Part shown: positions 18,992 through 38,421 of the stretch, in pieces
Position numbering within the stretch: the first letter of the stretch is position 1
Layout: each line of letters opens with the position of its first letter
Assembly (NCBI GenBank): GCA_018970145.1
Contig: JAGWWY010000008.1
Coordinates: 1 to 64,000 of the forward strand
Direction of reading: 5' to 3'
Origin: Gammaproteobacteria bacterium
Lineage (GTDB): Bacteria; Pseudomonadota; Gammaproteobacteria; Steroidobacterales; Steroidobacteraceae
DNA length: 64,000 bases
Program-made: the position numbers and the translations under genes
The notes under the pieces: generated by a model
What the model saw: only the letters and a program-made list of their open reading frames with translations
Told to the model about the DNA's origin: nothing
Databases searched by the model: none

Positions 18992-19070
18992 CCGCGACGA
19001 GGGGCGCTGCAGCATCGGGTTGGCCGATGCCAGGCTCGTTGCGAGTCAGGATGACGTTCAACGGCGCCCG
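18992..19070 (+). ncRNA. SAH riboswitch (S-adenosylhomocysteine aptamer)
   Basis: The sequence matches the SAH riboswitch class element by element. The P1 5' arm CGCGACGAG (18993-19001) pairs with CTCGTTGCG (19035-19043) with one G-U. The conserved GGGGCGCTGC follows P1. P2 is GCATCGG with CCGATGC closed by a short loop. CCAGGCTCG is the conserved junction. The distal CGGCGCCC (19062-19069) can form the pseudoknot with GGGCGC. Known members bind SAH and raise expression of SAH-clearing genes. About 33 bases separate the aptamer from the ahcY ATG, so control is most likely by freeing the ribosome binding site. Confidence 0.92.
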
Positions 19071-19103
19071 TTAATCTTCAACCAAGATCAACGGAGTCAG
19101 ACC

Positions 19104-20522
19104 ATGAACGCTGTCGTTAAATCGATCGGTAAGACCGACTTCCACGTCGCCGATCTCTCCCTCGCCGATTGGGGTCGCAAGGAAATCCGTATCGCCGAGA
19201 CCGAAATGCCGGGCTTGATGGCGATCCGAGAGGAGTTCGCCCCGACGCAACCTCTGCGCGGCGCCCGCATCACCGGCTCGCTGCACATGACCATCCAGAC
19301 GGCCGTGCTCATTGAGACGCTGCAAGCGCTCGGTGCGCAGGTTCGTTGGGCCTCGTGCAACATCTTCTCGACGCAGGATCACGCGGCCGCTGCGATCGCC
19401 GTCAACGGTACGCCCGTCTTCGCCTACAAGGGCGAGTCGCTGAAGGAATACTGGGATTTCACTCATCGCATCTTCGAATGGTCCGACGGTGGCTACTCGA
19501 ACATGATCCTCGACGACGGTGGCGACGCCACGCTGTTGCTGCACCTTGGCACCAAAGCCGAGAGCGATCTGTCGGTGCTCTCGCACCCGGGCAGCGAGGA
19601 AGAGGAATACCTTTTCGCGAGCATCAAAGAAACCTTGCAGCGCGATCCGAAGTGGTACTCGACGCGTATCAAGCACATCCGCGGCGTGACCGAGGAGACC
19701 ACCACCGGCGTCAAGCGCCTCTACCAGATGGCCAAGGATGGCGCCCTTGCCTTCCCCGCCATCAACGTGAACGATGCGGTCACGAAGTCGAAGTTCGACA
19801 ATCTTTACGGTTGTCGTGAATCGTTGGTGGATGCCATCAAGCGCGCCACCGACGTCATGATCGCCGGCAAAGTCGCCGTGGTCTGTGGCTATGGCGATGT
19901 GGGTAAGGGCTCGGCCCAGGCCCTTCGAGCGCTCTCCGCGCAAGTGTGGGTCACCGAGTGCGATCCGATCTGCGCGCTGCAGGCAGCGATGGAAGGTTAC
20001 CGCGTCGTCACCATGGAATATGCCGCCGACAAGGCCGACATCTTCGTGACGGCCACGGGTAACTTCCACGTGATCACGTTCGATCATATGAAGCGCATGA
20101 AGGACCAGGCGATCGTCTGCAACATTGGCCACTTCGACAACGAAATCGATTGTGCTTCGTTGAAGCAGTGCCAGTGGGAGAACATCAAGCCGCAGGTTGA
20201 TCACGTGATCTTCCCCGACGGCAAGCGCATCACGCTGCTCGCCGAGGGGCGCCTCGTGAACCTCGGCTGCGGCACGGGCCACCCGAGTTTCGTGATGTCC
20301 TCGTCGTTCGCGAACCAGACGATCGCGCAGATCGAATTGTGGGCGAACCACGAAAAGTATCCGGTTGGCGTGTATGTGCTGCCGAAGCATCTCGACGAGA
20401 AGGTCGCACGACTGCATCTGCAGAAGCTCGGCGCCCAATTGACGGAACTCACCGATCAGCAAGCCAATTACATCGGTGTGACCAAGCAGGGTCCCTACAA
20501 GCCCGAGACCTACCGCTACTGA
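19104..20522 (+). CDS. ahcY: Adenosylhomocysteinase
   Basis: A 472-residue NAD-dependent hydrolase that splits S-adenosylhomocysteine into adenosine and homocysteine, removing the product inhibitor of methyltransferases. [31 protein letters not shown], the NAD loop [14 protein letters not shown] and the C-terminal PYKPETYRY are all typical. It carries the extra segment of about 40 residues (around [17 protein letters not shown]) found in many proteobacterial enzymes. The ATG at 19104 has GGAG 8 bases upstream. It is controlled by the SAH riboswitch in its leader. Confidence 0.96.
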
Positions 20523-28666: not shown

Positions 28667-30706
<2,040 letters not shown>

Positions 30707-30732
30707 GCCAGAGGCGACTTCCGCACTCTGCG

Positions 30733-30761
30733 AACCCCGCCCTCGTGGCGGGGTTTTTTTT
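30733..30761 (+). terminator. Intrinsic terminator of hppA
   Basis: Arms AACCCCGCC and GGCGGGGTT, with a 5-base loop (CTCGT), run into a T8 tract. It begins 27 bases after the hppA stop and touches the 3' end of the convergent gene at 30760. Confidence 0.92.
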
Positions 30762-31209
30762 AGAAGATCTTGCCCGGCTCGCCGATACGACTGCGATAAG
30801 CGCCGGGCGGCTCCTTCGGGTCGTCGCGACTGCGATCGGGAATCTTCGGCTGGTTAGGATCGGGCACCAGCAGGCGCCAAGCCTCCGTCGGACGGGTGGC
30901 TGCCCAAAACAAGCCGCCCAAGCCCTGTGGAACCGTTTTGCGCTCGGGGATGTCGGGCTCCGTCTTGCGCGACCGGACGATCACCTCGTCGATATCGGCG
31001 GGTAAGGGTTCAGCCCACTGAGCGGGCGGCAACAGACTTCGGATGTCGCCCACTCGCAAATCCAGTGACGGCGCGCCCGCGGGGCGTGGTGGCGCCAGCG
31101 GCGACGGTTGGTCCGAAGCCCGTGTCGGCGTCGACAACACGATCCAGCCCGCGAGCGCAAGGCTTGCATATTGGTTCCACCGGGCTACATTGACCGCATC
31201 GTGTTTCAT
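30760..31209 (-). CDS. Proline-rich secreted protein, unknown function
   Basis: A 149-residue predicted exported protein. MKHDAVNVARWNQYASLALAGWIVLSTPTRAS looks like a signal peptide. The mature part is rich in Pro, Arg and Asp, with LRVGDIRSLLPPAQWAEPLPADIDEVIV in the middle and a conserved-looking GGLFWAATRPTEAWRLLVPDP near the end. I do not recognise a named family. It is divergent from the M16 peptidase gene, with only 15 bases between the two start codons, so each gene's promoter must lie within the other's coding region. Confidence 0.55.
   Translation of the reverse strand: MKHDAVNVARWNQYASLALAGWIVLSTPTRASDQPSPLAPPRPAGAPSLDLRVGDIRSLLPPAQWAEPLPADIDEVIVRSRKTEPDIPERKTVPQGLGGLFWAATRPTEAWRLLVPDPNQPKIPDRSRDDPKEPPGAYRSRIGEPGKIF
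31164..31191 (+). promoter_or_regulatory. Possible promoter of the M16-bufABC transcript
   Basis: TTGCAT (31164-31169) and TACATT (31186-31191) are separated by 16 bases, each matching 4 of 6 consensus positions. The predicted start near 31198 gives a leader of about 27 bases before the TTG start at 31225. It lies inside the 5' part of the divergent gene. Confidence 0.32.
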
Positions 31210-31224
31210 ATCGGAGCCGCTCCC

Positions 31225-33993
31225 TTGCGACATTTCCTGCCTCGCCTTGCCGGTGTCATCGCCGCGCTGAGCCTCACCCTGGTTACCCCCACCCTGACGG
31301 CAGCGACGGTCAAATCCGTCACGCCCCCGCCGCCCGAGAAAGTCACCTCGGTGGAGGGCATCACCGAGTATCGCTTGGCGAACGGCATGAAGGTACTGCT
31401 GTTCCCCGATCCTTCCAAGTCGACGATCACGGTCAACGTAACCTACCTCGTCGGTTCACGTCACGAGGGCTACGGTGAAAGCGGCATGGCGCACCTGCTC
31501 GAGCATCTCGTATTCAAAGGAACGCCGCGCTTTCCGAACATCCCGCAGGAACTGACGGCGCGCGGCGCGCGACCGAACGGCACCACGTGGTACGACCGTA
31601 CCAACTATTTCGAAACCTTCGCCGCGACTGACGACAACCTGCGCTGGGCACTCGATCTCGAGAGTGATCGCATGATCAACTCGTTCATCGCGGAGAAAGA
31701 CCTGCAGAGCGAGTTCTCGGTCGTGCGTAACGAATTCGAGCGCGGCGAGAACGATCCGTCACGTGTGCTGCTGCAGCGCGTGATGTCGACGGCTTATCTT
31801 TGGCACAACTACGGCAAGTCGACGATCGGCTCGCGCGAGGATATCGAGCGCGTACCCATCGAGAACCTGCGCGACTTTTACAAGAAGTATTACCAGCCCG
31901 ATAATGCGGTGTTGACCGTGGCGGGCAAGATCGACGAAGCCAAAACGATTGGCTGGGTCAATGAATTCTTTGGCAAGATCCCGCGCCCGACTCGGATCTT
32001 GCAGCCGACCTATACGGTCGAACCCGTACAAGATGGCGAGCGTCACGTCGTATTGCGCCGCGTCGGCGAAGTTCAGGTGACCTCAGCCGGTTATCACATT
32101 CCGGCGAGCGCGCATCCGGACTTTGCCCCCGTGGAAATCCTCGCCGATATCCTCACCAACGAACCCTCGGGACGTCTCTACAAAGCCCTGGTCGAAACCG
32201 GCAAAGCGACGAGTGTCGGCGGTCTCGCCTTCAGCCTCAAGGATCCGGGTTATGCCTATTTCACGGCCGAGGTGCTGAAAGACAAGTCGGTTGACGATGC
32301 CACCAAGACCATGCTCGGTGTGCTCGACAACATGGCGGCAACTCCCGTTACCGAGGAGGAAGTTCAACGCGCTAAGAATCGCTTTCTCAAGGGCTTTGAG
32401 CAGGCGTACAACAACAGCGATCGAGTCGGCCTCGGTCTCTCGGAGTACATCGCCAAAGGCGACTGGCGTCTGTGGTTCCTGTCGCGCGACCTGATGGAGA
32501 AGGTGACGGCCGCCGATGTGAATCGCGTCGCTGCGCTGTATCTGAAGCCCGCGAATCGCACGACCGGTCTCTTTGTCCCCGAAGCCAACCCGGATCGCGC
32601 GATCATCCCACCCGCACCAAACCCTGCCGAACTACTCAAAGATTACAAGGGCAAGGCCGCCTTGAAACAAGCGGAAGTATTCGACCCCTCACCGGCGAAT
32701 ATCGTCGCGCGAACTCGCAGCGAAACGCTGCCGGGCGGAGCGGAGTACAGCTTCCTCACCAAGTCGACTCGGGGTGGTTCGGTCAACGCCACCATCACGC
32801 TGCGAGTGGGCAACCTCGGCGCGCTCGCCGGTAAATCGACAGTCTCGGAGTTGACTGCAGCGATGTTGCGTCGTGGTACTACGACGCGCAGCCTGCAGCA
32901 GATCAACGACGAGCTCGACAAGCTCAAGACGTCGGTCGGCATCGGCGGTGGCGGGCAGACCGTGACGATCAACATGACGTCCACGCGCGAGAATCTCGTG
33001 CCGGCGATGGAAATCGTGGCGGACATCCTGCGCTCGCCCTCGTTCCCGGAAGCGGAGTTCACCAAGCTGCGCGACGAGCTGCTAGCCGGTATCGACCAAG
33101 CACGCTCGGATCCCCAATCGATCGCCGCACGCGAGATCAATCGGGTCACCTCACCCTATCCTGCCAACGACTTCCGGCACACACTGGACTTCGATGGCGA
33201 GATCGCCGCGTTGAAGGCGGTCACGATCAAAGATTTGCGCGAGTTCCATGCGCAGTTCTATGGCGCCTCGAATGCTACGGCCTCTGTCGTCGGCGACTTC
33301 GACGAAACGACGGTGCGCGCGGCACTCGGCGCCACGCTCGCGGGTTGGCAAGCCAAAGTGCCCTATCAACGGGCCGAAGCCAAGTTCTTCGAGATCCCAG
33401 CAAGCGCTCGCAAGATCAACACGCCGGACAAGGCCAACGCCGTGATGATCGCGGGATTGAATCTGCAACTGCGCGACGACGACGCAGACTATCCGGCGCT
33501 CGTGATGGCAAACTACATGCTGGGCGGCGGATTCCTCAATTCGCGCCTCGCAGTGCGCATCCGTCAAAAAGAAGGTATCAGCTACGGCGTCTCTTCGTTC
33601 CTGTCGGCAGACTCGCTAGACAAGAACGGCGACTTCGGTACCTTCGCCATCTACAACCCGCAGAACTCGGCTCGTCTGCTTGCGGCCTATCGCGAAGAAC
33701 TCGACAAAGTTCTCAGCGAGGGCTTCTCCGAGTCAGAACTGAAGGACGCCAAGAGTGGCTGGCTGCAGGGCCGCAACGTAAGCCGCTCGCAGGATCGCGA
33801 GCTCGTGGGTCGTCTCTCGAGCTATTTGTTCCTCGATCGCACGCTCGAGTGGGACGCCGACTTCGAACGCAAGGTCGCGGCACTCAGTGCCGCCGACGTG
33901 AACACGACGGTCAAACGCTGGCTCAAGCCGGATCAACTGACCATCATCGAAGCAGGCGATTTCGAGAAAGCCGTAAACGCAGGAGGCAAGTAA
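31225..33993 (+). CDS. Secreted two-domain M16 zinc metallopeptidase
   Basis: A 922-residue pitrilysin-family peptidase. A signal peptide (residues 1-26) is followed by the first M16 domain with the inverted zinc motif HLLEH (90-94) and the downstream EFSVVRNEFERGEN that supplies the third ligand. The second half (from about 510) is another M16 domain lacking HxxEH, as usual. I start at TTG 31225, which has GGAG 8 bases upstream and begins directly with the signal peptide; GTG 31201 is the alternative. It should act in the periplasm. bufA begins 2 bases after its stop, so it shares a transcript with the bufferin genes. Confidence 0.86.
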   Translation: MRHFLPRLAGVIAALSLTLVTPTLTAATVKSVTPPPPEKVTSVEGITEYRLANGMKVLLFPDPSKSTITVNVTYLVGSRHEGYGESGMAHLLEHLVFKGTPRFPNIPQELTARGARPNGTTWYDRTNYFETFAATDDNLRWALDLESDRMINSFIAEKDLQSEFSVVRNEFERGENDPSRVLLQRVMSTAYLWHNYGKSTIGSREDIERVPIENLRDFYKKYYQPDNAVLTVAGKIDEAKTIGWVNEFFGKIPRPTRILQPTYTVEPVQDGERHVVLRRVGEVQVTSAGYHIPASAHPDFAPVEILADILTNEPSGRLYKALVETGKATSVGGLAFSLKDPGYAYFTAEVLKDKSVDDATKTMLGVLDNMAATPVTEEEVQRAKNRFLKGFEQAYNNSDRVGLGLSEYIAKGDWRLWFLSRDLMEKVTAADVNRVAALYLKPANRTTGLFVPEANPDRAIIPPAPNPAELLKDYKGKAALKQAEVFDPSPANIVARTRSETLPGGAEYSFLTKSTRGGSVNATITLRVGNLGALAGKSTVSELTAAMLRRGTTTRSLQQINDELDKLKTSVGIGGGGQTVTINMTSTRENLVPAMEIVADILRSPSFPEAEFTKLRDELLAGIDQARSDPQSIAAREINRVTSPYPANDFRHTLDFDGEIAALKAVTIKDLREFHAQFYGASNATASVVGDFDETTVRAALGATLAGWQAKVPYQRAEAKFFEIPASARKINTPDKANAVMIAGLNLQLRDDDADYPALVMANYMLGGGFLNSRLAVRIRQKEGISYGVSSFLSADSLDKNGDFGTFAIYNPQNSARLLAAYREELDKVLSEGFSESELKDAKSGWLQGRNVSRSQDRELVGRLSSYLFLDRTLEWDADFERKVAALSAADVNTTVKRWLKPDQLTIIEAGDFEKAVNAGGK

Positions 33994-33995
33994 AC

Positions 33996-34250
33996 ATGGA
34001 TAAGAGAAGTGCACTGATCATCGCTGCCGTAGGCAGTCTCGTGGCACTCGGTGTGGCGGATGCCATGGGACCGAAGGAAGGCTCTGAGAAATGCTACGGC
34101 ATGGTGAAGGCCGGTAAGAACGACTGCGCTGCCAACGCCCACAGTTGTGCGGGACAGGCGAAAGTCGACTCCGACCCCAATGAGTGGATCGTGGTTCCGC
34201 AGGGTGTCTGCGACAAAATCGTAGGCGGTCGGACCACGCCGGGCGGTTGA
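33996..34250 (+). CDS. bufA: Bufferin precursor, DUF2282 (BufA1-type RiPP)
   Basis: An 84-residue precursor. MDKRSALIIAAVGSLVALGVADA is a cleavable signal peptide, and the core holds four cysteines at 33, 44, 51 and 72 in the DUF2282 pattern EKCYGMVKAGKNDC, HSCAG, and VPQGVCDKI. In this family, MNIO enzymes modify cysteines to copper-binding heterocycles, and the product is exported to the periplasm as a copper chelator. AGGAGG lies 9 bases before the ATG, the strongest ribosome binding site I saw in the window, as expected for a highly made precursor. bufB begins on the last bases of this gene. Confidence 0.9.
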   Translation: MDKRSALIIAAVGSLVALGVADAMGPKEGSEKCYGMVKAGKNDCAANAHSCAGQAKVDSDPNEWIVVPQGVCDKIVGGRTTPGG

Positions 34251-35098
34251 GCCTGCGAGCTTGGCATGCCGGCTCGGCACCTCGCCGAGCCGGCATCGGC
34301 CTGCGTGCTGCACACCACAGCGAATGGATCGCACAACGGCCTGACGTCGGCTGGTTCGAGATCCACGCTGAGAATTATTTCGCCGAAGGCGGCCTGCTAC
34401 CGGACATTCTAGACACACTGCGGCGCGATCTTCCGCTGTCCATCCATGGCGTTGGGCTTGGCCTCGCGAGTACCGATCCGTTCGATGCGAGGCACCTTCA
34501 GCGACTCGCGCGGCTCAACGATCGTTACGAACCCGCCGTTGTATCGGAGCATTTGTGCTGGGGCAGTGCCCACGGAATCCACTACAACGATCTTTTGCCG
34601 TTTCCGTTCACGCGCGACATGCTCAAGCACGTCGTGGCACGAGTTCAACTCGTGCAAGAACGGTTACGAAGACCAATTTTGCTCGAGCACCTCTCGAGTT
34701 ACGTGACATTCGAAGAATCCCACCTCTCTGAGACGGAGTTTTTGATCGCGCTCATCCGTCGTACTGGTTGCGGCTTGCTGCTCGATCTGAACAATCTCGT
34801 GGTCAACGCAGAAAACCACGGTATCGATCCGGAAGCCTACATCGCGAGCTTGCCCGTCGATGCCATCGGCGAGATCCATCTGGCCGGACACGGACATTAT
34901 CGATACGGCGATAGAACCCTGTGCATCGACACGCACGATCGGCCGGTACCCGATCGCGTTTGGAGCTTATATCGCTACACACTGCGTCAGTTCGGGGCAA
35001 AGCCGACCTTGATTGAATGGGACGCCCAACTGCCGACGCTGTCCGCCCTCGCCGCGGAAGCGCACAAGGCCGATGCGTGTATCGCGGAGCTCGTATGA
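34247..35098 (+). CDS. bufB: Bufferin-modifying MNIO enzyme (DUF692)
   Basis: A 283-residue multinuclear non-heme iron oxidative enzyme. The TIM-barrel metal and substrate motifs are all visible: GIGLRAAHHSEW, WFEIHAENYF, LSIHGVGLGL, VVSEHLCWG, ILLEHLSSYV, LLLDLNNLVVNAENHG, EIHLAGHGHY and LIEWDAQLPTLSAL. The family modifies cysteines in the partner precursor, here bufA. No ATG is near the start. TTG at 34247 overlaps the bufA stop (TTGA), and GTG 34184 inside bufA is the alternative. A perfect 13-bp hairpin covers codons 7-17. Confidence 0.9.
   Translation: MSLRAWHAGSAPRRAGIGLRAAHHSEWIAQRPDVGWFEIHAENYFAEGGLLPDILDTLRRDLPLSIHGVGLGLASTDPFDARHLQRLARLNDRYEPAVVSEHLCWGSAHGIHYNDLLPFPFTRDMLKHVVARVQLVQERLRRPILLEHLSSYVTFEESHLSETEFLIALIRRTGCGLLLDLNNLVVNAENHGIDPEAYIASLPVDAIGEIHLAGHGHYRYGDRTLCIDTHDRPVPDRVWSLYRYTLRQFGAKPTLIEWDAQLPTLSALAAEAHKADACIAELV
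34266..34296 (+). promoter_or_regulatory. Perfect 13-bp hairpin at the bufA-bufB junction
   Basis: ATGCCGGCTCGGC (34266-34278) pairs exactly with GCCGAGCCGGCAT (34284-34296) around the loop ACCTC. It starts 16 bases after the bufA stop and lies within the first codons of bufB. It has no T tract, so it is not a standard terminator. A likely role is to stabilise the bufA message end or slow ribosomes so that enzyme is made in smaller amounts than precursor. Confidence 0.75.
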
Positions 35099-35874
35099 GC
35101 CTGCAGATCTGGCAAAGACGGTTCGCAGCGCAACTCGATGCGGCAGAGCCACCGCAAGACCCCGGAATGCACGTATATCACCACAATCTGCGCGCTCAGT
35201 TTCGTAAAGCCTTGGCGGTATCTTTTCCGATGGTTGCCGAGCGACTTGGTCCGGTGATCTTTGATACCTTGGCCGAAAGATTCCGTCAAAGAAATCCCTC
35301 ACGTAGCGGCGATTTACACCTGAGCGGCTCGGCCTTTCCCGAGTTCCTCTTTGCCGATGCACACACCACAGCCCGTGCAATCGGGGAATCCCCGCGAACG
35401 GCTCTCGGCATCGACCTCGCGGAGCTCGCGCGTCTAGAGTGGGCTTGGCAGAGCGCACTGATCGCAGCGGATCAACCGGCTATCGGCGCCACCTCGCTCG
35501 CGAGATTCCCCGAGGAGCACTGGCCGTCACTAGCGCTGCGATTACAGCCCTCTTTCGCCGTGCTGCGCTCGCGCACCGCTGTGATCAGCTATTGGGAAGC
35601 GCGCCGCGAGCGAACCACGTCCGTGATGCCCGCTGCGACCCGAAGCGGTCCGGAACAAGCCTGGCTCGTCGGCACCCCGCGAGGTCCGACACTGCAACGC
35701 TGCAACGCTGCTACGGCCGAGTGGCTCGAGCTGCTCAGCGCCGGCGCAAGCCTCGCGACCGCTCTGGATGGCTCCACCGGCGTCGCTGAGCTCGACATGA
35801 CAACAACGCTACAGGGTCTTTTCAGCCACGGTGCCGTGGTGTCCCTCGATCTTCGCGCGGACGAGCAAGCGTAG
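35095..35874 (+). CDS. bufC: Bufferin partner protein BufC (DUF2063)
   Basis: A 259-residue protein of the DUF2063 type that pairs with DUF692 enzymes. The N-terminal domain has the family pattern IWQRRFAAQLD, MHVYHHNLRAQFRKALAVSFPMVAERLG and FDTLAERFRQ. The C-terminal part resembles a RiPP-recognition-like domain in family members, thought to bring the precursor to the MNIO enzyme; I infer this from family knowledge. Its ATG overlaps the bufB stop (ATGA). The annotation as DNA-binding in some databases is probably wrong for this family. Confidence 0.84.
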   Translation: MSLQIWQRRFAAQLDAAEPPQDPGMHVYHHNLRAQFRKALAVSFPMVAERLGPVIFDTLAERFRQRNPSRSGDLHLSGSAFPEFLFADAHTTARAIGESPRTALGIDLAELARLEWAWQSALIAADQPAIGATSLARFPEEHWPSLALRLQPSFAVLRSRTAVISYWEARRERTTSVMPAATRSGPEQAWLVGTPRGPTLQRCNAATAEWLELLSAGASLATALDGSTGVAELDMTTTLQGLFSHGAVVSLDLRADEQA

Positions 35875-35887
35875 GTAATGATCCGGC

Positions 35888-35916
35888 TTGGCAGTCTGCC
35901 GGAAAACACGTATTTT
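35888..35916 (+). promoter_or_regulatory. Probable pcm promoter
   Basis: TTGGCA (5 of 6) and TATTTT (4 of 6) are separated by exactly 17 bases, just after the bufC stop. It gives a leader of about 22 bases before the ATG at 35945 and separates this transcript from the buf operon. Confidence 0.5.
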
Positions 35917-35944
35917 CTGCGGCCCTTTTGGCGAGATTTTTGTC

Positions 35945-36601
35945 ATGTCGTTTGATGCCGCTCGTGAACAGATGATCCAGCAGCAATTGCGGACTTGGGA
36001 GGTTCTGGACCAGGACGTTCTCGACGTGTTCGAGAGTATTCCGCGCGAGCGATTCGTCCCCGCAGGCTACGAGTCACTCGCCTACGCAGACATCGAGCTG
36101 CCATTGGGGCAGGGCGATTACATGCTGGCGCCCAAGGTTGCGGGTCGCATCCTGCAGGCGCTTACAATCGAGCCCGCAGATCAAGTGCTGGAAGTTGGCA
36201 CCGGCTCGGGTTATCTGACCGCGGGTCTCGCCGCCCGCGCCCGCAGCGTGCGCTCGCTCGAGATCCGCACGGATTTAGCCGCTCAGGCTGCCAAAAATCT
36301 CGCGGCCTTCGGCGTGAACAATGCCTCGGTCGAACACCGCGATGCCTACGCCAACGAGGCGCTTGGCAGCACGGCATACGATGTCATCGCTCTCACTGGC
36401 TCGCTGCCGATCGACGATGCGCGCTATGCGAGACAACTGGCCATCGGGGGGCGTTTGTTCGCTGTCATCGGTCAGGGCGCGGTGATGGAGGCCACGCTGA
36501 TCGAGCGCGTCTCTGCCGATCAATTCCGTCGCACCGTCTTGTTCGAGACCAGCCTCAAGTCGCTCGTCGGCGCGGCGGAACCTGCCCGCTTTCATTTCTG
36601 A
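35945..36601 (+). CDS. Protein-L-isoaspartate methyltransferase family protein
   Basis: A 218-residue SAM-dependent methyltransferase of the PCMT family. MIQQQLRTWEVLDQDVLDVFESIPRERFVP is the family N-terminus, and VLEVGTGSGYLTAGLA is the SAM loop. The substrate motif that reads GQTIS-x-P in true isoaspartyl repair enzymes is GQGDYMLAP here. This branch occurs in the same pcm-rhodanese-tolC-waaA arrangement in Xanthomonadales and may act on a different substrate. The ATG at 35945 was chosen over an upstream start that would overlap the promoter. Confidence 0.8.
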   Translation: MSFDAAREQMIQQQLRTWEVLDQDVLDVFESIPRERFVPAGYESLAYADIELPLGQGDYMLAPKVAGRILQALTIEPADQVLEVGTGSGYLTAGLAARARSVRSLEIRTDLAAQAAKNLAAFGVNNASVEHRDAYANEALGSTAYDVIALTGSLPIDDARYARQLAIGGRLFAVIGQGAVMEATLIERVSADQFRRTVLFETSLKSLVGAAEPARFHF

Positions 36602-36633
36602 ATTCGGCAGTTCGTAATTTGGAGTTTCAATCC

Positions 36634-36954
36634 ATGGTGCAGGAATTGTCGGTCGAGGATCTTAAAGCCCGGCTCGATACCGGCGAGCGGCCGCTCGTGA
36701 TCGACGTGCGCGAAGGCTGGGAACTCGACATCTCCCACGTCCCCTTCGCTCAGCACGTGCCGATGGCGCAGGTACCGAATCGCGTCGGCGAATTCGACGC
36801 GGATACACCGATCATCGTGATGTGTCGCTCGGGCGCACGCAGCCTACAGGTTGCCCGCTTCCTCGAGAGTCACGGATTTCGGTCAGTCAGCAATTTGACC
36901 GGCGGAATCTTGGCCTGGGGGGAACGGATCGACCCCTCGTTGCGTCCATACTGA
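36634..36954 (+). CDS. Single-domain rhodanese (GlpE-like sulfurtransferase)
   Basis: A 106-residue rhodanese domain. VIDVREGWELDISHV is the CH2A-type strand, and the active-site loop is MCRSGARS, with the catalytic Cys. TGGILAWGERIDPSLRPY closes the domain. It should transfer sulfur from thiosulfate or a persulfide carrier to an acceptor in the cytosol. The ATG has GGAG 9 bases upstream. It lies 32 bases after the PCMT gene and 69 before tolC. Confidence 0.86.
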   Translation: MVQELSVEDLKARLDTGERPLVIDVREGWELDISHVPFAQHVPMAQVPNRVGEFDADTPIIVMCRSGARSLQVARFLESHGFRSVSNLTGGILAWGERIDPSLRPY

Positions 36955-36967
36955 GCCGGACGACGTC

Positions 36968-36996
36968 TGGTCAGACACGGCGTCGACTGTTATAGT
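36968..36996 (+). promoter_or_regulatory. Probable tolC promoter
   Basis: TGGTCA (4 of 6) and TATAGT (5 of 6) with a 17-base spacer. The predicted start near 37003 gives a leader of about 21 bases, with AGGA shortly before the ATG at 37024. Confidence 0.5.
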
Positions 36997-37023
36997 GATA
37001 TATAACACCCTCTGAGGATTCTT

Positions 37024-38421
37024 ATGAAGCGCGTACTCGGGCTGTCGCTCGGACTCATGATGGCCGTCTCGACGGCCGCCGCTGAAGACCTGAAGGCGGT
37101 CTACGATCGCGCCTTGGCCAACGATCCGCAAATTCGCGAGGCGGAAGCGCTACGTCGTGCGACGCGTGAAGCGAAACCTCAGGCGTGGGCAGCGGTGCTT
37201 CCGCAGATCTCGGGAAGTGCGAGCCGCAGCAAAGCCGAATCCGAGGTGGAAGGTCAGTTCCCGCAAGAGATCGTCCAGAACGGCCAAACCGTCGTGTTCA
37301 ACTTTCTCTCCTCGAGCAACTCCAAGCCGGAAACCGATCGTTGGAGCCTAGATCTGCGCCAGAGTCTGATCTCTTGGGACAACTGGGTTGCGATCAAACG
37401 GGCCGATCGTCAGGTTGCGCAGTCGGAAGCCGACTACCAGGCCGCTGAGCAGCAGCTGATCCTTCGGGTATCGGAGGCGTACTTCAACGTGCTGGCCGCG
37501 CAGGACACCGTCGATGCGCAGGCCTCCTCGCTTGAGGCCATCTCGCGCCAGCTCGAGCAGGCCGAAAAGCGCTTCGAAGTCGGGCTCATTGCGATCACCG
37601 ACGTGCAAGAGGCACGGGCCGCGCGCGACAGTGCGGCCGCCGCAGTCATCGCATCCAAGCGCCAACTGGCTTCGACCGAAGAGTTGCTGCGCGAAATCAC
37701 CGCCGAAAAATATCGCGAACTCGCCAAACCCGGCGATTCGATGCCACTCAAGTCACCGGAACCGCAAGACGAGACGCAATGGGTTGAGCGCTCGATGGAG
37801 CAAAATCTCGCGCTCGTCTCGAGTCGGCTCGCTGCCGAGATCGCTCGTGACAACGTGCGTATCGCCTTCGGTGGGCATCTGCCAAAACTCGACCTCGTCG
37901 CGAGCAAGAGCAATACGGACCAGACGAGCCCGATCAACTTCTCAAGTGGCAACGTAGGCACTCGCACGAACAACAGCGACGATACGAGCTACGCACTACA
38001 AGTGACCATGCCACTCTTCAGCGGTGGCGCGACGCAGTCGCGAGTCCGTCAGACCGAATATCAATGGCAGGCTGCGCGTGAACGCCTCACCCGCGTCTCG
38101 CGCCAAACCGAACGTCAGGCGCGTGACGCCTACCTCGGCGTCATCAGCGAAATCTCGCGCGTGAACGCGCTGGGCCAGGCGCTCGAATCGAGCCGCACCG
38201 CATTAAAAGCAACCGAAGCCGGTTATGAAGTGGGTACGCGCACGGCCGTTGATGTACTTGAGTCGCGTCGCGCGCTTGCGGTAGCCGAGACCAATTACTC
38301 GCGCAGCCGCTACGACTACATCCTCAACGTCATGCGCTTGCGACTCGCCTCGGGCACGCTTGATCGCAGCACGCTCGAGGAAGTGAACACCTGGCTGACT
38401 GAGACCTCGCAACCGCGCTAA
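37024..38421 (+). CDS. tolC: TolC family outer-membrane channel
   Basis: A 465-residue outer-membrane efflux duct. A signal peptide (MKRVLGLSLGLMMAVSTAAA) precedes two tandem outer-membrane efflux protein repeats. Typical helices are DLKAVYDRALANDPQIREAEALRRA, EAYFNVLAAQDTV, RFEVGLIAITDVQEARA and, in the second repeat, YEVGTRTAVDVLESRRALAVAE. It works with inner-membrane pumps in drug efflux or type I secretion; no such pump is next to it. Its stop overlaps the convergent waaA stop by 4 bases. Confidence 0.92.
   Translation: MKRVLGLSLGLMMAVSTAAAEDLKAVYDRALANDPQIREAEALRRATREAKPQAWAAVLPQISGSASRSKAESEVEGQFPQEIVQNGQTVVFNFLSSSNSKPETDRWSLDLRQSLISWDNWVAIKRADRQVAQSEADYQAAEQQLILRVSEAYFNVLAAQDTVDAQASSLEAISRQLEQAEKRFEVGLIAITDVQEARAARDSAAAAVIASKRQLASTEELLREITAEKYRELAKPGDSMPLKSPEPQDETQWVERSMEQNLALVSSRLAAEIARDNVRIAFGGHLPKLDLVASKSNTDQTSPINFSSGNVGTRTNNSDDTSYALQVTMPLFSGGATQSRVRQTEYQWQAARERLTRVSRQTERQARDAYLGVISEISRVNALGQALESSRTALKATEAGYEVGTRTAVDVLESRRALAVAETNYSRSRYDYILNVMRLRLASGTLDRSTLEEVNTWLTETSQPR

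Follow-up and report, generated by a model that had tools for sequence, protein, structure and literature searches.

A 64,000-nucleotide stretch of DNA from a member of the Steroidobacteraceae (assembly GCA_018970145.1, contig JAGWWY010000008.1, positions 1 to 64,000 of the forward strand; termed here the window) carries a three-gene locus of the bufferin type, bufABC, at positions 33996-35874 of the + strand. The genes lie in the order A-B-C with a 4-base overlap at both junctions. A first-pass annotation, made from the sequence alone, had described a complete and tightly overlapping bufABC operon, and this is what is seen. The genes, together with two sites within them, are as follows.

33996-34250, + strand: bufA, ATG start to stop, encoding a DUF2282 (Buf1) precursor of 84 amino acids (PF10048).
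BufA residues ~1-23 and ~24-84: predicted signal peptide and predicted mature peptide, respectively.
34247-35098, + strand: bufB, TTG start, encoding a putative MNIO bufferin maturase of 283 amino acids (PF05114, NF050167).
34685-34690, + strand: codons of Glu147 and His148 in bufB, the bridging iron ligand followed by a histidine.
35095-35874, + strand: bufC, ATG start, encoding a putative DUF2063 plus RRE-type partner protein (PME type 1) of 259 amino acids (PF09836).

The TTG start of bufB is one that we infer from the 4-base overlap with the bufA stop. The first-pass annotation had assigned the three genes to the DUF2282, DUF692/MNIO and DUF2063 families, and in Pfam searches all three exceed the curated cut-offs of these families. 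bufA matches PF10048 with 87.6 bits (E 5.4e-25, cut-off 22.4), bufB matches PF05114 (MbnB_TglH_ChrH) with 340.6 bits (E 7.2e-102, cut-off 25) and bufC matches PF09836 with 56.3 bits (E 4e-15, cut-off 27.2). Among the NCBIfam models, bufB clears the BufB equivalog NF050167 (362 against a cut-off of 310) and falls below the cut-offs for HvfB (226.5 bits, cut-off 360), ApyH, ChrH and MbnB. The HvfC model gives 14.4 against a cut-off of 142, bufA is below the BufA2 cut-off (21.3 bits vs 60) and bufC clears no NCBIfam model. The whole assembly has a single MNIO match and a single DUF2282 match, both at the buf locus.

The four cysteines of BufA are at positions 33, 44, 51 and 72, exactly where the first-pass annotation had placed them in its DUF2282 precursor. 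All four are present in 102 of 103 aligned BufA rows, the remaining row being gapped at the last cysteine; a BufA profile was used to collect these rows, among which genomes G006 and G023 appear twice. The N-terminus, MDKRSALIIAAVGSLVALGVADA, resembles a Sec signal peptide and displays a positive n-region, a hydrophobic core and, by eye, an A-D-A cleavage site. His49, near the second core cysteine, is common to 24 of 102 other rows. BufA is devoid of EGKCG repeats, and a sequence search of the PDB with it gave one meaningless match (E 0.36).

In the Buf1 system, heterocycles arise from the two central cysteines, and the outer pair is joined in a disulfide (PMC12452194); each thiooxazole corresponds to a loss of 4 Da (PMC13097082). 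By analogy, Cys44 and Cys51 are predicted to become thiooxazoles and Cys33 and Cys72 a disulfide. For a 61-residue mature peptide, cleaved after Ala23, the calculated monoisotopic mass is 6216.90; it would fall to 6208.84 with two thiooxazoles, to 6206.82 with the Cys33-Cys72 disulfide in addition, and to 6200.78 if all four cysteines were modified. The earlier proposal that core cysteines are converted to heterocycles can be retained, by homology, for the central pair; for the outer pair a disulfide is expected instead.

The iron ligands described for TglH are His71, His107, Glu151, Asp184, His216 and Glu258, with Asn187, Asp229 and His231 also at the third site (PMC10880893). BufB positions aligned to these ligands are H67, H102, E147, D180, N183, H211, D228, H230 and E257, where the assignment of H67 rests on alignments to 3BWW and MbnB, as the TglH alignment starts at residue 90. 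No departure is found in any of the nine columns among the 96 to 99 rows that carry a letter (98 homologues and the window). An E-x-D motif suggests that D259 is probably the counterpart of Asp249 of FonB, the proposed base (PMC13097082).

Of the 98 rows with a letter at position 148, next to the bridging ligand, 7 (the window among them) have His; all 91 others have Asn. The seven, which are the window and loci L032, L033, L034, L115, L116 and L117, all belong to one sub-clade of the genus; BufB of L032 is 90% identical to that of the window. Asn is also found in the more distant loci L022-L026, outside the 98-row set, by a sequence pattern that matched nothing in 6 of 20 loci, and L028, L030 and the aligned TglH, MbnB and 3BWW chains likewise have Asn. 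On a bufB tree built without this column the change to His takes two steps; a single origin is nevertheless likely because the count involves a fork with only 51% support. His148 is regarded as a second-shell substitution. It is very unlikely that BufB of this sub-clade differs in the reaction that it catalyses or in the state of its cofactor. The confinement of His148 to one sub-clade, against Asn in all other rows and in the three structural chains, would fit such a change, as would the purifying selection that still acts on the enzyme, but neither the aligned ligands nor the likely catalytic Asp has changed, the ligands listed for TglH do not include the position that follows the bridging Glu (PMC10880893), and BufA of His148 genomes resembles BufA of Asn148 genomes. 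The substitution offers a natural variant for probing the role of the otherwise conserved Asn beside the bridging Glu in MNIO enzymes.

The AlphaFold2 model of BufC (55 rows, mean pLDDT 87.6, pTM 0.83) has exactly three PDB matches with Foldseek at E ≤ 0.001, TglI (8hci, 8hi7) and NGO1945 (3dee), at modest TM-scores of 0.48-0.54 by query length over 243-258 alignment columns. The BufC sequence has no PDB match at E ≤ 1. PME type 1 partners are typified by NGO1945, a DUF2063-RRE protein (PMC12452194), and the modelled fold of BufC agrees with this type, a DUF2063 plus an RRE-type domain.

All three genes are under purifying selection, with the precursor the most constrained and bufC the least. 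In codon comparisons with five relatives each, omega is 0-0.14 for bufA, 0.13-0.30 for bufB and 0.23-0.39 for bufC, the three more distant comparisons being near saturation at synonymous sites; the rhodanese row of L112 was misaligned and left out. Between the window and G006, bufA has 10 synonymous and 0 non-synonymous differences. Because the family scores exceed their cut-offs and constraint is seen at the codon level, chance is ruled out as a source of the locus. That the operon is a decaying relic, whose peptide is made and not modified, is hardly credible: buf is missing from the site in seven genomes of the genus, which fall in at least two tree groups, and bufC evolves fastest of the three genes, yet the frames are intact, omega is well under 1 throughout and the strongest constraint is on the precursor itself.

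Traits of Buf1 operons are the order A-B-C, four conserved cysteines, a signal peptide, the MNIO iron ligands and a DUF2063-RRE partner (PMC12452194). With a probability of about 0.85, the locus is by homology a chromosomal Buf1 bufferin (captophorin) operon whose BufA would be exported and would bind copper. Gene content and order, conserved residues, the predicted fold of BufC, selection and synteny support this reading directly. The thiooxazoles, the cysteines that would carry them, export and copper binding are projected from homologues. The operon is ordinary in kind and matches what the literature predicts, in a lineage unnamed in the bufferin papers cited here; no literature was found on DUF692 with Steroidobacter.

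The mechanism envisaged is modelled on the Buf1 system, where BufB and BufC modify BufA before export and the exported peptide binds copper (PMC12452194, PMC13097082). In the cytoplasm, BufA with its signal peptide still in place would be presented by BufC to BufB, an iron enzyme, which would oxidise Cys44 and Cys51 to 5-thiooxazoles. The Sec machinery would then export BufA, the signal peptide being removed after Ala23, and Cys33 and Cys72 would close a disulfide. The 61-residue product would bind copper in the periplasm and buffer an excess of it. Transcription would occur with, or from, the M16 peptidase gene that lies upstream, and not from a sigma-factor-controlled promoter of the operon's own.

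Several points weigh against this assignment. His148 could alter the BufB reaction, and with the 51 homologues that do not come from the three nearest genomes BufC shares only 18-38% identity. A CueR-like palindrome served as the copper-regulator box; at up to 3 mismatches it occurs 15 times in the window vs 24.4 expected, which is no signal, and the five matches in 31144-35061 have 3 mismatches each. As no such box stands out, induction by copper has no support from the sequence. In addition, the bufferin need not be the main copper defence, since further genes of the genome are candidates for copper handling: those for a heavy-metal RND pump that scores above its family cut-off (C1:366458-369568), for a Cu-ATPase whose sequence is divided between two contig ends, of which one lies ~4.5 kb from a COX1 match, and for one Cu-oxidase_3 protein. 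The heavy-metal RND family spans several metals. No CopB match was found in the genome.

A match to the Cu-ATPase model TIGR01511 at E < 1e-80 is present in 8 of 13 genomes with buf and 2 of 11 without (Fisher p 0.047), in a test that ignores relatedness and includes assemblies as incomplete as 77%; the link between buf and the ATPase is a hint only. The curated TIGR01511 cut-off is exceeded in 8 of 24 genomes, and the split copy of the window genome is below it. The ATPase may be the cytochrome oxidase's own pump, because ATPase and COX1 matches share a contig in 7 of the 10 genomes that have the ATPase. Separately, the RND pump genes over the TIGR00914 cut-off in G004, G009, G010, G015 and G023 each contain one in-frame stop codon; the window genome and G006 have copies free of such stops.

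The wider gene order is H+-pyrophosphatase, M16 peptidase, bufABC, pcm, rhodanese and tolC, followed by a gene that we take to be waaA. Nine proteins from 28667-38421 were searched against Pfam and gave H_PPase, M16, DUF2282, MNIO, DUF2063, PCMT, rhodanese and OEP/TolC, with one open reading frame that has no family. Features around the operon are listed below.

30732-30756, + strand: intrinsic-terminator-like site after the H+-pyrophosphatase gene, with a 10-pair stem and a run of 8 T.
31108-33993, + strand: gene for a two-domain M16 peptidase (PF05193, 222.4 bits; PF00675, 89.6 bits), the start being set mechanically and the true start perhaps further in.
33981-33986, + strand: AGGAGG in the last M16 codons, read from the sequence as the likely ribosome-binding site of bufA.
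35888-35916, + strand: promoter-like site TTGGCA-17-TATTTT between bufC and pcm (9 of 12, a consensus match only).

The M16 gene, not mentioned in the first-pass annotation, ends 2 bases before the bufA start, and this gap is kept in the window, G006 and G023. The terminator-like site at 30732-30756 separates the H+-pyrophosphatase gene from the M16 and buf genes, and from the M16 stop to the bufC stop the only terminator-like call on the + strand is a weak one within bufB. Given the 2-base gap between M16 and bufA, the transcript may begin at the M16 gene, which would be a possible first gene of the transcription unit; bufABC may be co-transcribed with it, judged by gene spacing. The site at 35888-35916 may start pcm separately; promoter-like sites of this kind number 4 in 6.5 kb, with 1.3 expected.

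Beyond the terminator-like site lies a divergent open reading frame (30760-31233, - strand) of 157 amino acids with a signal-peptide-like start. It has no Pfam match at E ≤ 1 and no NCBIfam match at E ≤ 0.1. By tblastn it is found in 14 of 33 loci of relatives, and it adjoins the M16 gene in all 14.

The first-pass annotation had seen no DoxX or sigma-factor gene beside the operon, and none is present among the nine neighbouring proteins. The assembly, which is 94.65% complete, has no match to DoxX (PF07681) or NrsF (PF06532). No sigma-factor domain was found among the tested neighbours, the search having covered these and not the whole assembly. DoxX is frequent and not obligatory in Buf1 clusters, and the sigma factor and NrsF are likewise found there without being obligatory. 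The first-pass annotation had suggested from this absence that regulation may differ from the described types. The lack of DoxX alone is nothing out of the ordinary, as a three-gene version without it has been described in Legionella (PMC5413113); the position of the operon directly behind the M16 gene is a possible cause of different regulation.

Public records of the nearest relatives are metagenome-assembled genomes. Among 24 genomes of the genus, 13 (window included) have buf, G002 only as a bufB fragment with bufC. Contigs reach upstream of bufA in 11 of them, and the M16 gene is directly upstream in 8 (window included). Two genes lie between M16 and bufA in G009 and G015, and G011 has buf without M16 at the site, its M16 gene being on another contig. 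In seven further genomes M16 is followed directly by pcm, with ~120-195 bases between the aligned ends and no buf at the site, and no MNIO or DUF2282 match is found anywhere in these genomes. Nor is there such a match in G010, G012, G014 and G021, where the site is missing from the contigs or cut by a contig end. The set from outside the genus comprises 77 named loci; bufA was located in 76, of which 75 extend 500 bases or more upstream of the gene, and in none of the 75 is M16 beside bufA. The M16-like open reading frame of L093 is on the opposite strand, at a distance of over 7 kb.

These patterns bear on the possibility that M16 and bufABC form one system, whereby the M16 enzyme, if exported, would trim or degrade mature BufA and release copper or a shorter metallophore. 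The 2-base spacing and the M16 gene directly upstream in 8 of 11 genomes speak for it, and a published MNIO cluster, that of the nitrilobacillins, has two M16 peptidases, used as native protease (PMC13060819). However, the same M16 gene occupies the same site without buf in seven genomes of the genus, other genes split the pair in G009 and G015, G011 has buf without M16 there, and the arrangement is not seen at the 75 loci from outside the genus. Such a joint system is very unlikely. The M16 enzyme is probably a neighbour and not a maturase, because the linkage is seen only in the genus and seven genomes have the gene at this site but no buf; it would be a stable neighbour of the site and not a conserved member of the bufferin cluster. 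The idea of a dedicated bufferin maturase is weakened by the same two observations. Linkage of M16 with bufABC was not found in print, in literature searches on MNIO with M16 and on DUF692 with Steroidobacter and in term searches within PMC12452194, PMC13097082 and PMC12538549.

A broader proposal is that of a variant in one lineage of Steroidobacteraceae-like bacteria, in which buf is under the control of the gene for an exported M16 peptidase, M16 handles the mature bufferin and the second-shell His148 tunes a mixed-valent diiron centre. We consider this combination decidedly unlikely; if true, it would represent a house-keeping bufferin and not a stress-induced one.

Returning to the Buf1 operon, its history at this site can be followed in part. 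On the bufB tree, 11 of 12 rows of the genus form one clade (95% SH-aLRT) inside genus plus family rows, and the twelfth, G017, falls among the family rows, which makes one exchange involving G017 possible. In G036, which represents a different genus of the family, buf likewise lies between H_PPase and pcm. A FastTree phylogeny of neighbouring genes places the genomes without buf in at least two groups among those that have it, one made up of L132-L134 and one of L135-L137 with L140 (support 1.0 each); a third, L138, is attached through weakly supported branches. The GC content of bufABC is 0.59-0.63 vs 0.60-0.62 for the neighbours, and that at third codon positions is 0.66-0.67, lower than the 0.72-0.79 of the neighbours. 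Recent horizontal acquisition is weakened by the neighbour-like GC content, the genus clade in the bufB tree and the position of buf in G036, though the lower third-position value remains. Old presence at the site with repeated loss would be the simplest reading of the trees and synteny. A presence/absence series at one chromosomal site would allow a natural comparison of copper tolerance.

Other insertions are seen at the site. In L117 (G015), Pfam identifies the genes between M16 and bufA as those of a zinc alcohol dehydrogenase and an esterase, and those in L115 (G009) are alike by eye; both pairs resemble a glutathione-dependent formaldehyde pair. G017 has a gene for a PAS-GGDEF-EAL protein between bufC and pcm (L126, 2834-5242), and a similar long open reading frame was noted by eye in the matching interval of G011 (L119). 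Elsewhere in the window, an S-adenosylhomocysteine (SAH) riboswitch (RF01057, 18993-19076, + strand, 59.3 bits) is found at the start of an open reading frame for S-adenosylhomocysteine hydrolase (19020-20522; PF05221, 490 bits), which is the expected pairing.

Several known systems share features with the window operon. The nitrilobacillin cluster also brings M16 genes together with an MNIO gene (PMC13060819), but its precursor and chemistry are different, and the M16 gene of the window operon's site is found there without the MNIO operon as well. Buf2 bufferins represent exported, cysteine-bearing MNIO substrates, as BufA would be by homology; they have 6 or 12 conserved cysteines, whereas BufA has four and scores 21.3 bits with the BufA2 model, whose cut-off is 60. 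The oxazolin/fontiphorin operons (HvfABC) have an MNIO enzyme and a DUF2063 partner as well. Their precursors carry EGKCG, in contrast to BufA, and the HvfB and HvfC models remain below cut-off here.

The gold-induced gene (GIG) operons of Cupriavidus and Legionella consist of the same gene families, and the three-gene Legionella version also has no DoxX gene (PMC5413113). In Legionella, the operon is driven by a metal-responsive promoter of its own and is located on an integrative conjugative element, whereas the window operon is in a conserved chromosomal neighbourhood. Relative to Buf1 bufferins, the window operon differs in that no DoxX, sigma-factor or NrsF gene is among the neighbours tested, in its position directly behind an M16 gene, in His148 of BufB and in His49 of BufA. 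With the same Buf1 bufferins, or captophorins, it shares the bufABC order, the four cysteines, a signal-peptide-like start, a BufB that passes the equivalog model and a partner of PME type 1 (PMC12452194, PMC13097082).

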